Source: Acidobacteriota bacterium
GTDB lineage: Bacteria; Acidobacteriota; Thermoanaerobaculia; Gp7-AA8
Length of the DNA stretch: 64,000 nucleotides
Direction: 5' to 3'
Assembly: GCA_019244185.1 (NCBI GenBank)
Contig: JAFATB010000009.1
Coordinates: 1-64,000 of the forward strand
Below, one piece after another: positions 38,721-48,023 of this stretch. Position 1 is the stretch's first letter. The number at the start of each line of letters is the position of its first letter. Position numbers and translations under genes: made by a program. The notes beneath the pieces were generated by a model. That model was not told the origin of the DNA. It did no database searches and worked only from the letters and a program-made list of their open reading frames with translations.

Positions 38721-39030
38721 GCGCGCTGCAGTTGACGCGGCGCTTCGCGCCGCGCAACTGAGCGGCGCACATGCAGTGGCGCGCTGACTCGTCGATCCCG
38801 CCGTCGCGCACAGACGCGCAGATCGCGCGCAGGTCGTCATCGGTCATCCGCTTCAACTCGCGCGCCGTTGCGCGCTGCAGTTGACGCGGCGCTTCGCGCC
38901 GCGCAACTGAGCGCGCACATGGAGTGGCGCCCTACTCGTCGATCCCCGCCGTATGCGTCGGCGGCAGTGTGCGCAGATACGCATAGATCGCGCGCAGATC
39001 GTCGTCCGTCATCCGCTTCAGTTCCGGCCA
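38721..39030. repeat. Tandem duplication of a cytochrome c gene 3' end plus hairpin
   Basis: Bases from 38721 recur at 38870, with an offset of about 149 nt. Each unit contains a stable hairpin (GTTG-A-CGCGGCG / CGCCGCGCAAC with a CTTCG apex, at 38731-38760 and 38880-38909) followed by sequence for the C-terminus of the diheme cytochrome. The second unit belongs to the intact gene; the first is a diverged remnant. Confidence 0.8.
38788..38859 (-). pseudogene. Remnant of the cytochrome c C-terminus
   Basis: On the minus strand this reads LKRMTDDDLRAIC..GGIDE, against LKRMTDDDLRAIY..AGIDE at the end of the intact diheme cytochrome 150 nt away. The middle of the segment is shortened and the stop codon is lost. 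It has no start of its own and is best read as a non-functional duplicate. Confidence 0.75.
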
Positions 39031-39876
39031 CGGCATGAACGGATGGATCGCGTTCCCCTCCGGATCCTTCCCCGTGCGGATCGCGCGCAAAAAGTCCGCC
39101 TCGCTCCAGCGGCCGATGCCGGTCTCGGAATCGGGCGTGAGGTTCGACGGCCGCGCGGGAAAGTCCGCCGGCGGCTTCGGCACGCCCGCGAGCAGGCGTG
39201 AGCGGTCGGGCTTCTGCAGCAGCCCCGTGCGCGGCGTGTGGCATTCGGCGCAGAGCGCGGCATGCTGCGTGAGGTACGCGCCGTACGCCGCGTTGGCTCC
39301 CGCCGGCGTCGAGGCGACGGCGAGCTCCGGCTTCGGGCGGAGGAACAGGACCTTTCCGATGCGGAAGATGACGTTCGGACTCTGGCGCACCTCGGCGCGC
39401 ACGGGCGGCAACGTCTTGAGATAGCGCGCGATCGCGAACGCGTCGGCGTCCGACAGCTCGTGGAACCATTCGTACGGCATCACTGGCGCGAGCAGGCGTC
39501 CGTCGCGGCGCACGCCGTTGCGGATCGCGCGCACCAGCTCCGCGTCCGTCCAGCCGCCGATGCCGGTGTCGGCGTCGGACGTGAGATTCGACGCGCGCGC
39601 CACGCCGATGCGCCAGTTCCGGAACTCCTTTCCTCCGGCCAGCGCTCCATCCGGATTCTTCGCGTCGGCGGAATGACAGCCGCCGCACACCGCCACGTTG
39701 CGCACGAGATACTCGCCGCGCGCGACCGATGCGTCGCCTGCCTCCGGCGCGGGCACGCGCGGCAGCGGCACTTGCGAATGCCCGCAGCGCAGCGCGGTCA
39801 GTGTGAAGAGGAAGATCGTCGCGGCGGCCGGAACGCGTCCGCGCGCGGAGGGCCGGAGAAATCGTGCAGCGTCCAT
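38932..39876 (-). CDS. Exported diheme cytochrome c
   Basis: ATG at 39876 is preferred (314 aa) because it is followed by a basic stretch and a hydrophobic export segment; upstream codons overlap the riboswitch region. Two c-type heme sites are seen, CGGCH (64-68) and CAECH (209-213), each followed by a matching domain, with methionines in MPYEWF and FMPWPE as likely sixth ligands. It would carry electrons in the periplasm and depend on the adjacent Ccm genes. It is convergent with ccmI. The role is unknown; the layout resembles alcohol or aldehyde dehydrogenase-linked cytochrome subunits. Confidence 0.87.
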   Translation of the reverse strand: MDAARFLRPSARGRVPAAATIFLFTLTALRCGHSQVPLPRVPAPEAGDASVARGEYLVRNVAVCGGCHSADAKNPDGALAGGKEFRNWRIGVARASNLTSDADTGIGGWTDAELVRAIRNGVRRDGRLLAPVMPYEWFHELSDADAFAIARYLKTLPPVRAEVRQSPNVIFRIGKVLFLRPKPELAVASTPAGANAAYGAYLTQHAALCAECHTPRTGLLQKPDRSRLLAGVPKPPADFPARPSNLTPDSETGIGRWSEADFLRAIRTGKDPEGNAIHPFMPWPELKRMTDDDLRAIYAYLRTLPPTHTAGIDE

Positions 39877-39938: not shown

Positions 39939-39944
39939 CTCCGC

Positions 39945-40026
39945 CAGCCTCGGGGTGGCCGCGCATCGCACGGCCTGAGATCAAACCCGTGGAACCTGAT
40001 CCGGCTCGCACCGGCGTAGGGAAGGC
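39945..40026 (+). promoter_or_regulatory. TPP riboswitch (THI element)
   Basis: The conserved thiamin pyrophosphate aptamer is plain: CGGGGTGG, then a variable stem (GGCCG...CGGCC), CTGAGATC, ACCCGTGGAACCTGATC, a short CCGG..CCGG arm, and GCGTAGGGAAGGC. The P1 helix pairs GCCT (39947-39950) with AGGC (40023-40026). The start codon of the TonB-dependent receptor begins only 3 nt after P1, so TPP binding would directly mask the GGGAAGG ribosome-binding region. Confidence 0.95.
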
Positions 40027-40028
40027 AA

Positions 40029-42083
40029 ATGAAACGACTCGCCGCGGTTTTTCTCCCTCTCTTTCTTTTCACCATTCCAGTGCTCGCGGATGATCCGCCG
40101 TTTACGGAGACCATCGTCGTCTCCGCGATCCGCGCGGACGACGCGAAGCCGGTCACGAAGACCGACATCCCGCGCGGGGAGATCGAGGCCGACTATCACG
40201 GGCAGGACGTGCCGCTGCTGCTGCGCGACGCGCCGTCGGTGCACGCGTGGAGCGAGTCGGGCGCGGGCGGCGCCGGCTACTCGTACATCTCGCTGCGCGG
40301 CGTCGCGGCCACGCGGCTCAATTTCACGCTCGACGGCGTGCCGCTCGCCGACTCCGAAGACATGGGGACGTACTTTGCGGACTTTCCCGATCTCGCGCGC
40401 TCGCTGGAGAGCATTCAGATCCAGCGCGGCGTCGGCACGTCGACGGTCGGCAGTCCGTCGTTCGGTGGATCCGTGAATCTCGAATCGATCGCAGTCGGCA
40501 GCGATCAGCAGTTCGACGCCACCGTCGGCGGCGGCTCGTTCGGCAATCGCCAGCTCTCGGCCGGCTATCACTCCGGCGCGTTCGCGAACGGCTTCGCGTT
40601 CTACACGCGGCTCTCGCTCCTCGAATCCGACGGCTATCGCGACAACTCCGCCATGCGCCAGCGCGATCTCTTCTTCAGCGGCGTCAAGCCGATCGGCAAC
40701 GCGCTGCTGCAACTGACCGGCTTCTCCGGGCACGAGCGCCAGCAGCTCTCGTTCTACGCCGCCGACGCGGACACGCTGCGCGTCGATCCGCGCGCGAATC
40801 CGCTCTCGCCCGACGAGCATGACAGCTTCGGCTACGACCTCGCGCAGCTCCAGTACATCCGGCCGCTCGGCGCATCGAGCGACATGACCGCGTCCGCGTA
40901 CTACCAGCGTGGCTACGGCTGGTATCGGCTCTTCGACGAAGAAGCCACGCTGCGCCAGTACGGTCTCGATGGCCTGCTCGCCGGCACGATGCTCACGTAC
41001 TCGCATGCGGTCGGCGGCTTCACGCTCAACAGCGGCGTGCACGTGAACCGCTTCGAACGCGAGCACACGCGCGACGACGTCGTGGCGCAGACGCGCGACT
41101 ACGCCAACGACGGCGTAAAGTCCGAGGCCAACGCCTTCGCGAAGCTGACGTGGCAGGCCGCGCGCTGGACGATCTACGGCGACGCGCAACTGCGCACCGC
41201 GCGCTTCGCGTACCACGGCGACGTCTCCATCGATCCGATCTCCTGGACCTTCTTCAATCCGAAAATCGGCGCGCGCTACGGGCTCACGTCGAATGCCAGC
41301 GTCTACGCGTCGGCGGGCCTCTCGACGCGCGAGCCCGCGCGCAACGATCTCTTTCAGGGCGAAGACAACGCGTCCATTCCGCACGACCTCAACGCGGTGA
41401 AGCCCGAGCATCTCGCCGACTTCGAGGCTGGCTGGAACTGGCGGCGGCGCGGAGTCGAAGTCGCGGCGAACGTCTACGCGATGGAGTTCCACGACGAGAT
41501 CGCCGCGACCGGCGAGCTCTCCGACATCGGCCTCGCGCTGCGCCGCAACGTCGACCGCAGCTCGCGGCGCGGGCTCGAGCTCGAGGCGAAATGGCAGGTG
41601 CGCCCGAACGTTCGGCTGCGCACCGACGCGAACGTCAGCCGCAATCGCATCCGGACGTGGACGCAGTTCTTCGACGTCTACGACGACGCCGGCACCTTCA
41701 CCGGCTCCGATGCCGTCACGTACCACGACGTCGAGCCGCTGCTCACGCCGAACGTGCTGCTCAATCAGACGATCGAGTACGCCCCGACGCGCCGCGTCTC
41801 CCTCGGCGCCGTCGCGCGCTACGCCGGCCGCTCCTATCTCGACAACACCGGCAATCCCGCGTTCGCGACGCCGTCGTTTTTCACCGCCGACGCGCGCGTT
41901 GCGTATGCCGTCACGCCGCGGGCGCGCGTTTCGCTCCAGGTCGACAACGTGTTCGACAACGACCGCGTCTACGCGAACGGCTACAGCTACCTCTACGAGT
42001 CCGGCGGCGCGCGCACCGGCACCGCGTACTACTTCCCGCAGGCCACGCGCTCGGCGAGCGTGCTGCTCGATCTGGACTGGTGA
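40029..42083 (+). CDS. TonB-dependent outer-membrane receptor, predicted thiamin uptake
   Basis: The 684-aa protein has a Sec signal peptide (1-20), a TonB-box-like ETIVVSA, a plug domain (about 40-150, with LRGVAATRLNFTLDGVPL) and a 22-strand-type barrel ending in aromatic LLDLDW. Such receptors bring scarce ligands across the outer membrane using TonB-ExbBD energy. The TPP riboswitch immediately upstream and the PnuT-like permease downstream make thiamin, a thiamin phosphate or a precursor the likely ligand. The stop is followed within 1 nt by the permease start. Confidence 0.88.
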   Translation: MKRLAAVFLPLFLFTIPVLADDPPFTETIVVSAIRADDAKPVTKTDIPRGEIEADYHGQDVPLLLRDAPSVHAWSESGAGGAGYSYISLRGVAATRLNFTLDGVPLADSEDMGTYFADFPDLARSLESIQIQRGVGTSTVGSPSFGGSVNLESIAVGSDQQFDATVGGGSFGNRQLSAGYHSGAFANGFAFYTRLSLLESDGYRDNSAMRQRDLFFSGVKPIGNALLQLTGFSGHERQQLSFYAADADTLRVDPRANPLSPDEHDSFGYDLAQLQYIRPLGASSDMTASAYYQRGYGWYRLFDEEATLRQYGLDGLLAGTMLTYSHAVGGFTLNSGVHVNRFEREHTRDDVVAQTRDYANDGVKSEANAFAKLTWQAARWTIYGDAQLRTARFAYHGDVSIDPISWTFFNPKIGARYGLTSNASVYASAGLSTREPARNDLFQGEDNASIPHDLNAVKPEHLADFEAGWNWRRRGVEVAANVYAMEFHDEIAATGELSDIGLALRRNVDRSSRRGLELEAKWQVRPNVRLRTDANVSRNRIRTWTQFFDVYDDAGTFTGSDAVTYHDVEPLLTPNVLLNQTIEYAPTRRVSLGAVARYAGRSYLDNTGNPAFATPSFFTADARVAYAVTPRARVSLQVDNVFDNDRVYANGYSYLYESGGARTGTAYYFPQATRSASVLLDLDW

Positions 42084-42084
42084 C

Positions 42085-42645
42085 TTGAGCCCGATCGAGA
42101 TCGTCGCCGCCATCGTCACCGTCGCCAGCATCGCGCTGGCGACGCGCGAGAACGTCTGGTACTACCCGACCGGCATCGCCAGCGTGCTGCTCTACGCGTG
42201 GGTCTACTTCTCCGCGCGCCTGTACGCGGAGTCGATGCTGCAGCTGATCTGGCTCGCGCTCATGATCTACGGCTGGCACCAGTGGCTGCACGGCGGCGCG
42301 AACAAGCGCGAGCTGCCGGTGACGCGCACCACGCGCTGGGGCTGGATCGTGGTCGCGTTCCTCGGACTCGTGCTTTCCGCGATCATCATCGGCATCCAGC
42401 GCCGCTGGACGAACAACCCCGCGCCGTACGTCGACTCGTCCATCGCGGCGTGGAGCATCGTCGCGCAGTGGATGACCGCGCGGAAGTGGATCGAGAACTG
42501 GATCCTCTGGATCGTCATCAACGTCGCCGCGGTCGCGCTCTACATCAACCGCCAGCTCTGGCCCACCGCCGTCGTCTACGCGATCCTCTTCATCCTCGGC
42601 ATCGAGGGCTATCGCAAGTGGCGCAAGTCGCTCGTGTCGTTCTGA
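42085..42645 (+). CDS. pnuT: PnuC/PnuT-family permease, predicted thiamin transporter
   Basis: A TTG at 42085, one base after the receptor stop, gives 186 aa; the ORF track merges it with a shadow frame. About six or seven membrane helices and the PnuC hallmark WIENWILWIVINVAAVALYI near residue 133 are present. PnuC proteins carry nicotinamide riboside, and PnuT homologues under TPP riboswitches carry thiamin by facilitated diffusion, relying on phosphorylation for trapping. The riboswitch places this copy in the PnuT group. Confidence 0.82.
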   Translation: MSPIEIVAAIVTVASIALATRENVWYYPTGIASVLLYAWVYFSARLYAESMLQLIWLALMIYGWHQWLHGGANKRELPVTRTTRWGWIVVAFLGLVLSAIIIGIQRRWTNNPAPYVDSSIAAWSIVAQWMTARKWIENWILWIVINVAAVALYINRQLWPTAVVYAILFILGIEGYRKWRKSLVSF

Positions 42646-43136
42646 CCGGCCCCGAGTCGACGGGGAAGACGCAGCTCGCGCAGCGCCTGGCGCGCGACCT
42701 CGGCGTCGCGTGGGTTCCCGAATACGCGCGCGAGTACGCGGAAGCGCGCGGCAACGCGCTGACAGCCGCCGACGTCGACTGGATCGCGCGCGGCCAGATC
42801 GCGAACGAAGACCGCGCGCCGGACGCGCCGATCCGCGACACGGACCTCATCTCGACCGTCGTCTATGCGCGCCACTACTACGGCGCGTGTCCGGCGTGGA
42901 TTGAAGCGGAAGCGCGCGCGCGCCGTGCGGCTCTCTATCTGTTGCTCGACACCGACGTCGAATGGCAGCCGGACGCCGCGCGCGATGCCGGCGGCGACGA
43001 GCGCGAGGATCTCTTCGACGCCTTTCGCGCCGCGCTCGACGAATTCGACACGCGCTGGGAGATCGTGAGCGGCGACTGGGACGAACGCTACCGCGCCGCG
43101 CTACGCCACATCGGCCAGATCGACGGTGATCAGTAG
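42618..43136 (+). CDS. NadR-like P-loop kinase, predicted thiamin-trapping kinase
   Basis: A GTG at 42618, inside the end of pnuT (28-nt overlap), gives 172 aa. Walker A is GPESTGKT (11-18), followed by the NadR kinase-domain pattern VPEYAREYAE and a DTDLISTVVYARHYYG segment. NadR's C-terminal domain phosphorylates nicotinamide riboside; here no adenylyltransferase domain is attached. Placement in a TPP-regulated operon suggests it phosphorylates thiamin after PnuT entry. That substrate is inference; nicotinamide riboside is the alternative. Its 3' end overlaps the convergent cupin gene by 36 nt. Confidence 0.78.
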   Translation: MAQVARVVLTGPESTGKTQLAQRLARDLGVAWVPEYAREYAEARGNALTAADVDWIARGQIANEDRAPDAPIRDTDLISTVVYARHYYGACPAWIEAEARARRAALYLLLDTDVEWQPDAARDAGGDEREDLFDAFRAALDEFDTRWEIVSGDWDERYRAALRHIGQIDGDQ

Positions 43137-43580
43137 GAGGCAGCCGTCGGCGGACGCCACGACGTCGCCGTGATGCGAGCCGGCGTCCACCTGATGAAAG
43201 TCTCCCGCGGCCAGCGCGACGCCGCCGATGTGGCAGCTCCCGCGCACGACGTACGACTCTTCCGCGCCCTTGTGATCGTGCGCCGGCAGGATCGACTGCG
43301 GCGCCAGCTCGAGCAGACACGTCATCGTGTTGCGGCGCGCGTCCTTCGTCAGCTTCTTCGTGCGCACGCCCGGTGCGACGTCGACCCAGCGTCCTTCGTC
43401 CGCGCGCACCGTGCGGCTCTCGTCTGGCCCCGGCACGCGCTCGTCGAGCTGCGGCGTGCGCGCGATCTGTGCGAGCACCTGCGCCCGCACGTGCGGCGGC
43501 GGCACGACCGGCGCGATCGTCTCCTTCGCGAGCGCGTCGAGCACGGCGAGTTCTTCGGCAGACAGTACGTCGCTCAACAT
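43101..43580 (-). CDS. ChrR-like cupin-domain protein
   Basis: The 159-aa form starts at ATG 43580; the ORF track extends to 43631, but those 17 codons have low third-position GC and overlap the divergent promoter. A cupin barrel occupies roughly residues 65-155, with metal-type residues in HDHKGAEESYVVRG and a second motif at GDFHQVDAGSHHG. It resembles the cupin half of ChrR anti-sigma factors, but the zinc-binding anti-sigma domain is missing and no ECF sigma gene is nearby. The function is unknown. Confidence 0.75.
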   Translation of the reverse strand: MLSDVLSAEELAVLDALAKETIAPVVPPPHVRAQVLAQIARTPQLDERVPGPDESRTVRADEGRWVDVAPGVRTKKLTKDARRNTMTCLLELAPQSILPAHDHKGAEESYVVRGSCHIGGVALAAGDFHQVDAGSHHGDVVASADGCLLLITVDLADVA

Positions 43581-43639
43581 GTCCCCCGAGATTGTACGGG
43601 CAGAACGGCCGATCGGTTCATTCAGTACCATCTGACCCC

Positions 43640-44332: not shown

Positions 44333-44980
44333 ATGGCGCAGATCTTCCACCGCAGTGCCAATACGCTCTCGCGCGTCACGATCTTCGGCGCGATCTTCGT
44401 GGCCGGTTTCGTGCTCTGGACCATCGGCGGCATCGTCCGTTCGCCGTACTTCACGAACCAGGGCATTCATCGCGAGCAGGTCGTTCCCTTCAGCCATCAG
44501 CACCACGTCGCGGGACTCGGCATCGACTGCCGTTACTGCCACACGTCGGTCGAAGTCTCGAACTTCGCCGGCATCCCGCCGACCTCCACGTGCATGAACT
44601 GCCATGCGCAGATCTGGACCAACGCGGAGATGCTCGAGCCGGTGCGCGCGTCGTACCGCACCGGGCAGCCGCTGCACTGGGTCCGCGTGCATCGCCTGCC
44701 CGACTTCGTCCACTTCAATCACAGCATCCACGTCGCTAAAGGCGTCGGCTGCGCGACCTGCCACGGCCGCGTCGACCGCATGAATCTGATGTATCAGGCC
44801 TCGCCGCTCACGATGGAGTGGTGCCTCGACTGCCACCGCGCGCCGGAGAAGTACCTCCGGCCGAAAGAGGAAGTCTTCAACATGGCTTACGTCGCGAAGG
44901 ATCAGGCGACGCTCGGCCCGCAACTGGTGAAAAAGTACGCCGTCCGGAGTCTCACGCACTGCTCGACCTGTCACTACTGA
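44333..44980 (+). CDS. actA: ACIII pentaheme cytochrome c subunit ActA
   Basis: The 215-aa protein has one N-terminal membrane helix (about 15-37) and five CxxCH sites: CRYCH, CMNCH, CATCH, CLDCH and CSTCH. This is the ActA layout of alternative complex III, a quinol:cytochrome c (or oxidase) oxidoreductase unrelated to bc1. Further histidines serve as distal ligands. It starts the act operon and needs the Ccm system encoded upstream. Confidence 0.93.
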   Translation: MAQIFHRSANTLSRVTIFGAIFVAGFVLWTIGGIVRSPYFTNQGIHREQVVPFSHQHHVAGLGIDCRYCHTSVEVSNFAGIPPTSTCMNCHAQIWTNAEMLEPVRASYRTGQPLHWVRVHRLPDFVHFNHSIHVAKGVGCATCHGRVDRMNLMYQASPLTMEWCLDCHRAPEKYLRPKEEVFNMAYVAKDQATLGPQLVKKYAVRSLTHCSTCHY

Positions 44981-45008
44981 GCCGGACGACGGCGGCAGAA
45001 CCCGAATC

Positions 45009-48000
45009 ATGAGCGATCAAAAAACCTTGAATTTCACCGAGTTCCGCGCGCGCGTGGGCGACCTGCGCGGCAAGGAATTCTGGCGCAGCCTCGAGGAGCT
45101 GTCGCGCAGCGACGTCTTCGACGAGTTCTTCGAACAGGAGTTCCCCCAGCAGGCGCTTCCGCTGAAGAAAGGCGTCGACCGCCGCGACTTCATGAAGCTC
45201 ATGGGCGCGTCGGTGGCCATGGCCGGACTTGCGGCCTGCCGTCAGCCGGCGGAAGCCATCATTCCGTACGTCCGCCAGCCCGAGAGCATCATCCCCGGAC
45301 GCCCGCTCTACTTCGCCAGCGCCATGACCCTCGGCGGCGTCGCCACCGGCGTGCTCGTCGAGAGCCACATGAACCGCCCCACCAAGATCGAGGGCAATCC
45401 CGAGCATCCGTCCTCGCTCGGCGCGAGCAACTCGTTCATGCAGGCCTCGATCCTCGGCCTCTACGATCCCGACCGCTCGCAGGTCGTCCGCCGCCTCGGC
45501 GACACCGCGACCTGGTCCGACTTCATCGGCGCGATCCAGCCGGTGCTCAACGCCGCGAAGACGAACGGCGCGGGGCTCCGCCTCCTCACGCAGACCATCA
45601 CCTCGCCGTCGCTCGGCGCGCAGATCCAGCAGCTCCTCGCCATGTTCCCCGGCATGAAGTGGCACCAGTGGGAAGCGGTGAGCTACGACGGCGCGCGCGA
45701 AGGCGGACGGATGGCCTTCGGCAGCTACGTCAACACGGTCTACGACTTCACGAAAGCGAACGTCGTCGTCTCCCTCGGCTCGAACTTCCTCGACGAAGGT
45801 CCCGCGCACCTCCGCTACGCGCGCGACTTCATGGGCCGCCGCCGCGTCCGCGCGGGCGAGGCCAACCGCATGAACCGCCTCTACGCGATCGAGGCCGGCA
45901 TGACCTCGACCGGCTCCGTCGCCGAGCATCGCCTCGTCGTCAAGCCGTCGCAGATCGGCGAGATGGCGAACGCGCTGCTCAATGGCCAGGGCTCGAATCC
46001 CTTCCTCGCCGCGCTGCTCAAGGATCTCGAAGCCAACCGCGGCGCGAGCGCCTTCATCGCCGGCGACGAACAGCCCGCCGCCGTGCACGCGATCGCGCAC
46101 GCGCTCAACGCGCGCTACGGCAACATCGGCACGACCGTCACCATCACCGACTCGCTCGAAGTCGCCCCCACGAATCAGCTCGCGTCGCTGCAGGAGCTCG
46201 TGCGCGACATGAACGCCGGCGCCGTCAACGCGCTGGTGATCCTGGGCGGCAACCCCGTCTTCGACGCGCCGGTCGATCTGCAGTTCGTGAAGGCGCTCGA
46301 CAAGGTGCCGTTCCGCGTCCATCACTCGCTGCACTACGACGAGACCTCGCTGCACTGCCACTGGCACATCCCCGACACGCACTACCTCGAGACATGGGGC
46401 GATGCGCGCGGCCACGACGGTACGGTCTCAATCATCCAGCCGCTCATCGCGCCGCTCTACAACGGCCGCGCGACGTCCGAAGTCCTCGGCGCGCTCATCG
46501 GCGGTCTCGATCAGACGCCGTACGAGGCGGTACGCGCGTACTGGTTCGCGCACGGCGCAACCGAAGAGTCGTGGCGCCGCTGGGTCCACGACGGCGTGAT
46601 TCCCAACAGCGCGCTCCCCGCGCGTGCGGGCGCCGTCCCGAACGCGCCGTCGCCAGCGCCCGCGATCGCGTCGAGCGGCATCGAGATCGAGCTGCGCCAC
46701 GATCCGACGCTCTACGACGGCCGCTTCGCGAACAACGCCTGGCTGCAGGAGCTGCCGAAGCCGCAGACCAAGATCACGTGGGACAACGTGATGATCGTCG
46801 GACCGAAGACGTCCGAGAAGATCGGCTATGACGCCGACGATCGCGACGGCAACGTCAACGAGCGCCGCACGCGCTTCGCCGACGTCCAGTACCGCGGCGT
46901 GAAGATGCGCCTGCCGGTGTGGGTCGTACCGGGACACTGCGAAGACGTCGCGACGATCTACTTCGGCCCCGGCCGCGAGCGCGGCGGCAAAGTCGCGGAA
47001 GGCACCGGCTTCAACACGTATCCGCTGCGCTTCTCCGACGCGCTGCACGGCGGCCCCGGCGCGCAGATCGCCATGTCGGCCGCTTCGGAGATCTATCCGA
47101 TCGCGTGCACGCAGGAACATCAGTCGATCGATCCGAAAGTCGTCGGCGAGCGCGGCATCATCCGCGCCGGAACGCTCGCGGCGTATCTGAAGAACCCGCG
47201 CTTCGCGCAGGCCGAGGAGCATGGGAGCGACGTCGCCGGCGAAGGCAACGAGTCGTTCTACAAGCCGTACGACTACAGCGACAAACACGCCTGGGCGATG
47301 GTCATCGACCCGAGCGTTTGCACCGGCTGCAACGGCTGCGTCGCCGCGTGTCAGGCGGAGAACAACATCTCCGTCGTCGGCAAAGAGCAGGTCGTGCACG
47401 AGCGCGAGATGCACTGGCTGCGCATCGACCGCTACTACCGCGGCGACGTCGAGAATCCCGACGTCTTCCATCAGCCGGTGCCGTGCATGCAGTGCGAGCT
47501 CGCGCCGTGCGAGCCGGTGTGCCCGGTCGAGGCGACCTCGCACAGCGAAGACGGCCTCAATGACATGACGTACAACCGCTGCGTCGGCACGCGGTACTGC
47601 TCGAACAACTGCCCGTACAAAGTGCGGCGCTTCAACTTCTTCCATTACGCCGACTACGACACGCCGTCGTTCAAGCCGATGCGCAATCCCGACGTCACCA
47701 TCCGCACGCGCGGCGTCATGGAGAAGTGCACGTACTGCGTGCAGCGCATCAACGCCGCGAAGATCGACGCCGAGCGCGAAGGCCGCCGCGTGCGCGACGG
47801 CGAAGTCGTCACCGCCTGCCAGCAGGCGTGCCCGACCCAGGCCATCGTCTTCGGCGACATGAACGACAAGACCAGTGCCGTCGCGCGCCTCAAAGCCCAG
47901 CCGCAGAACTACGCGATGCTCGAAGAACTGCAGACGCGCCCGAGAACGACGTATCTCGCGACGATCCGCAACCCGAACCCGGAGCTGAAGCCGGAAAGCG

Positions 48001-48023
48001 CGGACACGGGGCGGGAGGGATAG
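45009..48023 (+). CDS. actB: ACIII subunit ActB, molybdopterin-oxidoreductase-like/Fe-S fusion
   Basis: The 1004-aa protein begins with a cytosolic-looking ~57-residue segment, then DRRDFMKLMGASVAMAGLAAC, a Tat-like twin arginine with lipobox. A large molybdopterin-oxidoreductase-type domain (about 80-735) follows. The C-terminal third holds four cysteine clusters: CTGCNGCVAAC, CMQCELAPCEPVCP, CVGTRYCSNNCP and CTYC...ACQQACP, fitting three [4Fe-4S] and one [3Fe-4S] centres. ActB homologues keep the fold but carry no Mo cofactor; I infer the same here. It relays electrons with ActC. Confidence 0.93.
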   Translation: MSDQKTLNFTEFRARVGDLRGKEFWRSLEELSRSDVFDEFFEQEFPQQALPLKKGVDRRDFMKLMGASVAMAGLAACRQPAEAIIPYVRQPESIIPGRPLYFASAMTLGGVATGVLVESHMNRPTKIEGNPEHPSSLGASNSFMQASILGLYDPDRSQVVRRLGDTATWSDFIGAIQPVLNAAKTNGAGLRLLTQTITSPSLGAQIQQLLAMFPGMKWHQWEAVSYDGAREGGRMAFGSYVNTVYDFTKANVVVSLGSNFLDEGPAHLRYARDFMGRRRVRAGEANRMNRLYAIEAGMTSTGSVAEHRLVVKPSQIGEMANALLNGQGSNPFLAALLKDLEANRGASAFIAGDEQPAAVHAIAHALNARYGNIGTTVTITDSLEVAPTNQLASLQELVRDMNAGAVNALVILGGNPVFDAPVDLQFVKALDKVPFRVHHSLHYDETSLHCHWHIPDTHYLETWGDARGHDGTVSIIQPLIAPLYNGRATSEVLGALIGGLDQTPYEAVRAYWFAHGATEESWRRWVHDGVIPNSALPARAGAVPNAPSPAPAIASSGIEIELRHDPTLYDGRFANNAWLQELPKPQTKITWDNVMIVGPKTSEKIGYDADDRDGNVNERRTRFADVQYRGVKMRLPVWVVPGHCEDVATIYFGPGRERGGKVAEGTGFNTYPLRFSDALHGGPGAQIAMSAASEIYPIACTQEHQSIDPKVVGERGIIRAGTLAAYLKNPRFAQAEEHGSDVAGEGNESFYKPYDYSDKHAWAMVIDPSVCTGCNGCVAACQAENNISVVGKEQVVHEREMHWLRIDRYYRGDVENPDVFHQPVPCMQCELAPCEPVCPVEATSHSEDGLNDMTYNRCVGTRYCSNNCPYKVRRFNFFHYADYDTPSFKPMRNPDVTIRTRGVMEKCTYCVQRINAAKIDAEREGRRVRDGEVVTACQQACPTQAIVFGDMNDKTSAVARLKAQPQNYAMLEELQTRPRTTYLATIRNPNPELKPESADTGREG

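Follow-up and report, generated by a model that had tools for sequence, protein, structure and literature searches.

Known thiamin uptake systems and layout of the locus

Among known systems, the nearest counterpart is the Bacteroides operon OMthi (omr1)-pnuT-tnr3, in which a TPP riboswitch precedes the genes for a TonB-dependent receptor, PnuT and Tnr3, the last termed thiamin pyrophosphorylase (PMC5613172). The locus described here lies in the window, a stretch of 64,000 nucleotides from the genome of an Acidobacteriota bacterium (26 contigs, 98.9% complete, 5.3 Mb). A TPP aptamer and the genes for a TonB-dependent receptor, a PnuC-family permease and a NadR-like kinase follow each other on its plus strand (Table 1), so that riboswitch, receptor, permease and phosphorylating enzyme (here a predicted one) stand in the same order as in Bacteroides. 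In contrast to that operon, the third gene encodes a NadR-like AAA_28 kinase (PF13521) and not Tnr3, which we take to be a TPK, and the formation of TPP in the host, a soil acidobacterium, would need ThiL. The locus is best read as a known type of thiamin operon with a different kinase.

The receptor stop codon and the TTG start codon of the permease gene are separated by 1 nt, while the permease and kinase genes overlap by 28 nt. The gene before the aptamer encodes a di-haem cytochrome c (38935-39876), the one after the kinase a ChrR-like cupin (43104-43631); both are located on the opposite strand and therefore, the unit consists of exactly three genes, which are probably carried on a single transcript. 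A sequence-only reading had described a TPP aptamer, a TonB-dependent receptor, a TTG-started PnuC/PnuT homologue 1 nt later and an overlapping P-loop kinase between 39945 and 43136. The model searches bore out all four elements, and the interval was correct to within a few bases. Further downstream (44333-48023), genes for a multihaem cytochrome and then a molybdopterin/4Fe-4S protein were noted, with which an alternative complex III gene cluster probably begins.

Table 1. Features of the locus, with positions in the window.
Feature	Position	Strand	Evidence
TPP riboswitch aptamer (RF00059)	39941..40039	+	cmscan 68.2 bits, E 2.7e-11
Predicted ribosome-binding stretch UAGGGAAGGC	40017..40026	+	in 3' strands of P4 and P1; anti-Shine-Dalgarno duplex
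TonB-dependent outer-membrane receptor, 684 aa, ATG; predicted thiamin receptor (OMthi/omr1-like in context)	40029..42083	+	Plug (PF07715) and barrel (PF00593) domains
PnuC-family permease, 186 aa, TTG; predicted PnuT (thiamin facilitator)	42085..42645	+	PF04973 170 bits; related to the solved PnuC 4qtn
NadR-like P-loop kinase, 172 aa, GTG; predicted thiamin kinase (thiamin to TMP)	42618..43136	+	PF13521 (AAA_28) 131 bits
Kinase residues 74-92, DTDLISTVVYARHYYGACP, signature of riboswitch-linked kinases	42837..42893	+	column comparison, alignment

Riboswitch and predicted translational control

The RF00059 model was matched over its full length (positions 1-105) and above its gathering score of 54.3 bits. 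A chance match was ruled out by the E-value and by the retention of the aptamer in relatives; in an alignment with 24 of them, the conserved core was invariant. The search of the 5.3-Mb genome with RF00059 revealed no second TPP riboswitch. Judged by its sequence, the aptamer is expected to bind TPP.

P1 is formed by pairing of 39947-39950 (GCCU) with 40023-40026 (AGGC), and on its 3' side the Rfam model extends over the start codon of the receptor gene. An anti-Shine-Dalgarno duplex of -8.0 kcal/mol was predicted over 40017-40025. According to structure prediction, the receptor start codon lies 2 nt past P1 in the window and in its congener. As the predicted ribosome-binding stretch makes up the 3' strands of both P4 and P1, it should be masked directly when TPP binds, without a separate expression platform. 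For other genera, longer leaders with an apparent second hairpin over the ribosome-binding site were predicted. A classical terminator platform was not found at the aptamer, and the three terminator-like sites detected in all were intragenic. The scan for sigma-70 promoters, which is uninformative for a high-GC acidobacterium, found none. The placement of the permease gene, directly behind the riboswitch-led receptor gene on the same strand and retained there in relatives, fits control by the riboswitch and suggests that the permease is regulated by it.

Permease and receptor

By family and context, the permease resembles PnuT of Shewanella woodyi and Bacteroides: it belongs to the PnuC superfamily, is linked to a riboswitch and is coupled to a phosphorylating enzyme. 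The NCBIfam model nevertheless assigned it to the nicotinamide riboside transporter PnuC with 89.9 bits, over the cut-off. Its W..W motif ends in N, as in the solved PnuC 4qtn; two near relatives share this N, which in the window's clade takes the place of the D usual in most relatives. Permease and receptor are both predicted to carry thiamin.

Properties of the kinase

The AlphaFold model of the kinase (pLDDT 92, pTM 0.89) had NadR (8x7f, TM 0.90) as top solved match in Foldseek, followed by thymidylate kinases, and NadR was the nearest solved relative by sequence as well. Fold and conserved catalytic residues are those of an RNK-type P-loop kinase. Like the ribosylnicotinamide kinase domain of NadR (1lw7, 8x7f, 6gyf), the enzyme has a P-loop fold and is linked to a PnuC-family permease, and G11, E13, G16, K17, E35, R38, D52, D74, R122 and R129 are common to both. 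Unlike NadR, it has neither an NMNAT nor an HTH domain, shares only ∼26% identity, falls in a separate clade and stands in a thiamin genome context. TIGR01526 (NadR) matched over model positions 162-325 alone with 92.8 bits, compared to a cut-off of 341 bits, and the NMN adenylyltransferase domain is absent from the 172 residues.

A tree built from 102 kinases placed the riboswitch-linked enzymes in a clade (support 99/95) apart from NadR and from the Bacteroidota homologues; some of its Gemmatimonadota members have no aptamer nearby. D76, L77, S79, T80 and Y83 were invariant in 59 out of 59 riboswitch-linked kinases, and positions 76-92 as a whole (D-L-x-S-T-x-V-Y-x-x-H-Y-Y...P) were near-invariant. 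In NadR, this substrate-side motif is replaced. Its place after the D74 motif suggests that it contacts the substrate, and the genome context described below points to phosphorylation of thiamin to TMP.

With this predicted reaction, which ThiL would complete, the kinase resembles ThiK (YcfN) of E. coli. ThiK is of the APH/choline-kinase type, and the window kinase belongs to a different protein family. ThiK is absent from the host genome, where the best match to TIGR02721 reached 23.5 bits against a cut-off of 299 bits; the window kinase itself did not match this model. It stands outside the known thiamin kinase families.

PnuC-kinase pairs of Bacteroidota were considered as the same system and set aside; as they have no TPP aptamer nearby and form a separate clade, they were excluded from the count. 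These pairs (L154, L157, L160, L165, L166, L168 and L173) occur in genomes with ThiL and without TPK, and their vitamin is perhaps also thiamin. One class genome (G011, locus L046) has, in addition to the riboswitch-linked kinase, a second one of the true NadR type, with a c-di-AMP riboswitch at a distance of about 0.5 kb.

Conservation of the locus

The best named-record matches of the kinase were group 7/Thermoanaerobaculia genomes. Among 61 draft genomes of the class Thermoanaerobaculia, 27 contained a close kinase homologue (E below 1e-20), and receptor, permease and kinase were adjacent on the stretches fetched from kinase-bearing genomes. Longer stretches were needed because the receptor gene intervenes and the 1.5-kb kinase flanks contained no aptamer. 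Aptamer, receptor and kinase occurred together in 19 of the 27 genomes, a count that includes one locus with an aptamer below threshold and another with a convergent arrangement (G004). In the remaining eight, the locus was cut by a contig end (seven) or split (G054). The four-part order that the sequence-only reading proposed to look for in related genomes therefore recurs. The receptors at this place are 43-67% identical to that of the window.

In a collection of named genomes, the best 80 kinase loci were scored for TPP aptamers with a model built in this analysis, and 40 had one. Nineteen of these were colinear (aptamer-receptor-permease-kinase), twelve, mostly from Gemmatimonadota, had aptamer and receptor opposite in strand to permease and kinase, seven were gammaproteobacterial and two were others. 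Acidobacteriota (Thermoanaerobaculia) have kept the order as such, Gemmatimonadota a divergent version of it. One class genome (G048, locus L045) has aptamer, receptor and kinase adjacent with no permease gene there and no PnuC found in the genome; its inner-membrane carrier seems to have been lost or replaced.

Gene content and the transported vitamin

The presence of kinase, ThiC, ThiE, ThiL and TPK (in this order) was recorded as a pattern for the 61 class genomes. Pattern 1-0-0-1-0, kinase and ThiL without ThiC, ThiE and TPK, was found in 26 of them. Another 20 showed 0-1-1-1-0 and are de novo thiamin makers without the kinase, and 13 showed 0-0-0-0-1, TPK without kinase and ThiL. Only two genomes deviated: in G004 the kinase occurs together with the full pathway, and ThiL of G019 is just below the cut-off. 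Hence, the class uses three mutually exclusive routes to TPP, namely, de novo synthesis with ThiL, imported thiamin with TPK and loss of ThiL, and imported thiamin with the kinase and ThiL.

The kinase was present in 26/26 genomes with ThiL and without ThiE compared to 1/35 of the others (Fisher p 2e-16, a value inflated by kinship; given family-level kinship, there are fewer independent events than 61). ThiL exceeded its curated cut-off in all 27 kinase-bearing class genomes and was lost from the TPK-bearing ones. PnuC was found in 25 of the 27, but in only five of the 34 other class genomes. The sole kinase-less genome of the window's own family (G006) is that of a producer with ThiC and ThiE. 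None of 33 additional kinase-bearing genomes from outside the class contained TPK, and 30 of them had ThiL over the cut-off; ThiE was present in some, mainly Gemmatimonadota. Within the gene set used (kinase, ThiC, ThiE, ThiL and TPK), the kinase is the only visible candidate to supply ThiL of the kinase group with TMP; since YjbQ can stand in for thiamin phosphate synthase, the absence of ThiE is no proof against another source of TMP.

The host genome contains ThiL and lacks ThiE and TPK (no PF04263 match anywhere in the genome), as expected for a thiamin kinase by role (EC 2.7.1.89). The host is best read as a thiamin auxotroph. Another class genome (G007, contig C116:17633-19057) has a second gene of the PnuC family, which is separated from ThiL by 6 nt and oriented opposite to it.

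The kinase was also found with a different importer. In Arenicellales and Acidiferrobacteraceae, its gene is located just upstream of a TPP riboswitch leading ThiB, ThiP and ThiQ, as identified by NCBIfam equivalogs above cut-off. ThiB and ThiP were present at all seven TPP-linked gammaproteobacterial loci, ThiQ wherever the contig was long enough, and PnuC at none of the seven. With ThiBPQ as partner where PnuC is missing, the constant partner of the kinase is thiamin and not nicotinamide riboside, and on this sequence evidence the kinase appears to follow thiamin transport rather than the PnuC protein.

This bears on the possibility that the locus serves nicotinamide riboside uptake by a true PnuC and a true nicotinamide riboside kinase, with the TPP aptamer there by cross-talk or chance rearrangement. 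The NCBIfam name of the permease and the NadR relationship of the kinase in sequence and fold agree with it. However, the aptamer accompanies these genes in different families and phyla, the kinase family accompanies ThiBPQ, its presence tracks ThiL without ThiE, and the enzyme has no NMN adenylyltransferase domain and falls far short of the NadR cut-off. Nicotinamide riboside is thus very unlikely as the substrate.

Precursor transporters are also controlled by TPP riboswitches, and the operon could import a precursor or a breakdown product of thiamin (HMP, thiazole or a pyrimidine vitamer) for phosphorylation by the kinase. Genomes with the pattern 1-0-0-1-0 lack ThiC and ThiE, so that ThiE, for which YjbQ can stand in, would not be there to join the phosphorylated precursors, and the ThiBPQ linkage in gammaproteobacteria indicates thiamin itself; precursor import is even less likely than nicotinamide riboside uptake. 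Least likely of all is a one-step conversion of thiamin to TPP by a pyrophosphokinase like Tnr3/ThiN in place of TPK: the kinase occupies the position of Tnr3 in the Bacteroides operon (PMC5613172) and TPK is missing from kinase-bearing class genomes, but direct formation of TPP would make ThiL pointless, while every kinase-bearing class genome retains it and the TPK-bearing ones do not, and the fold is that of the phosphoryl-transferring NadR/thymidylate kinases.

Proposed function

The locus is very probably a thiamin uptake-and-trapping operon of a thiamin auxotroph, with the NadR-type kinase as thiamin kinase and ThiL elsewhere in the genome producing TPP. At low TPP, the ribosome-binding site overlapping P4 and P1 would be free and the mRNA translated. 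Thiamin would cross the outer membrane by way of the receptor and equilibrate across the inner one through the PnuT-type permease, and the kinase would convert it to TMP, trapping thiamin and pulling its uptake. ThiL would then form TPP from TMP, and TPP would close the switch. The sequence-only reading had inferred a complete thiamin capture route, up to trapping, in one transcript. This reading is supported by the recurrence of the order in related genomes and, for thiamin as the substrate, by the genome-wide gene content. It is refined in that the kinase is outside the known thiamin kinase families and should make only TMP, so that the way to TPP would need ThiL encoded elsewhere.

More broadly, it is likely that an unrecognised thiamin kinase family has arisen from NadR-type nicotinamide riboside kinases and serves thiamin auxotrophs among the Acidobacteriota, the Gemmatimonadota and the gammaproteobacteria, and perhaps also the Bacteroidota, its cassette having moved between PnuT-type and ThiBPQ-type importers. 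No open-access paper was found that names both 'thiamine kinase' and 'NadR'; as the search covered open-access literature, the novelty of the kinase is provisional. The enzyme may be the thiamin kinase that is missing from the known inventory of auxotrophs with ThiL, and a PnuC partner may switch vitamins along with its trapping kinase. Databases call the permease a vitamin B3 transporter and the kinase a NadR-like ATPase, and these names would lead to a misreading of the vitamin B1 requirement in many uncultured bacteria from soil and sea.

In genomes with TPK (loci L177, L180, L181 and L183), the gene behind a TPP aptamer encodes a TonB-dependent receptor with 25-29% identity to that of the window, which stands alone, with neither permease nor kinase next to it. 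The shared plug motif GxGYSYxxLRG may be a mark of thiamin receptors.
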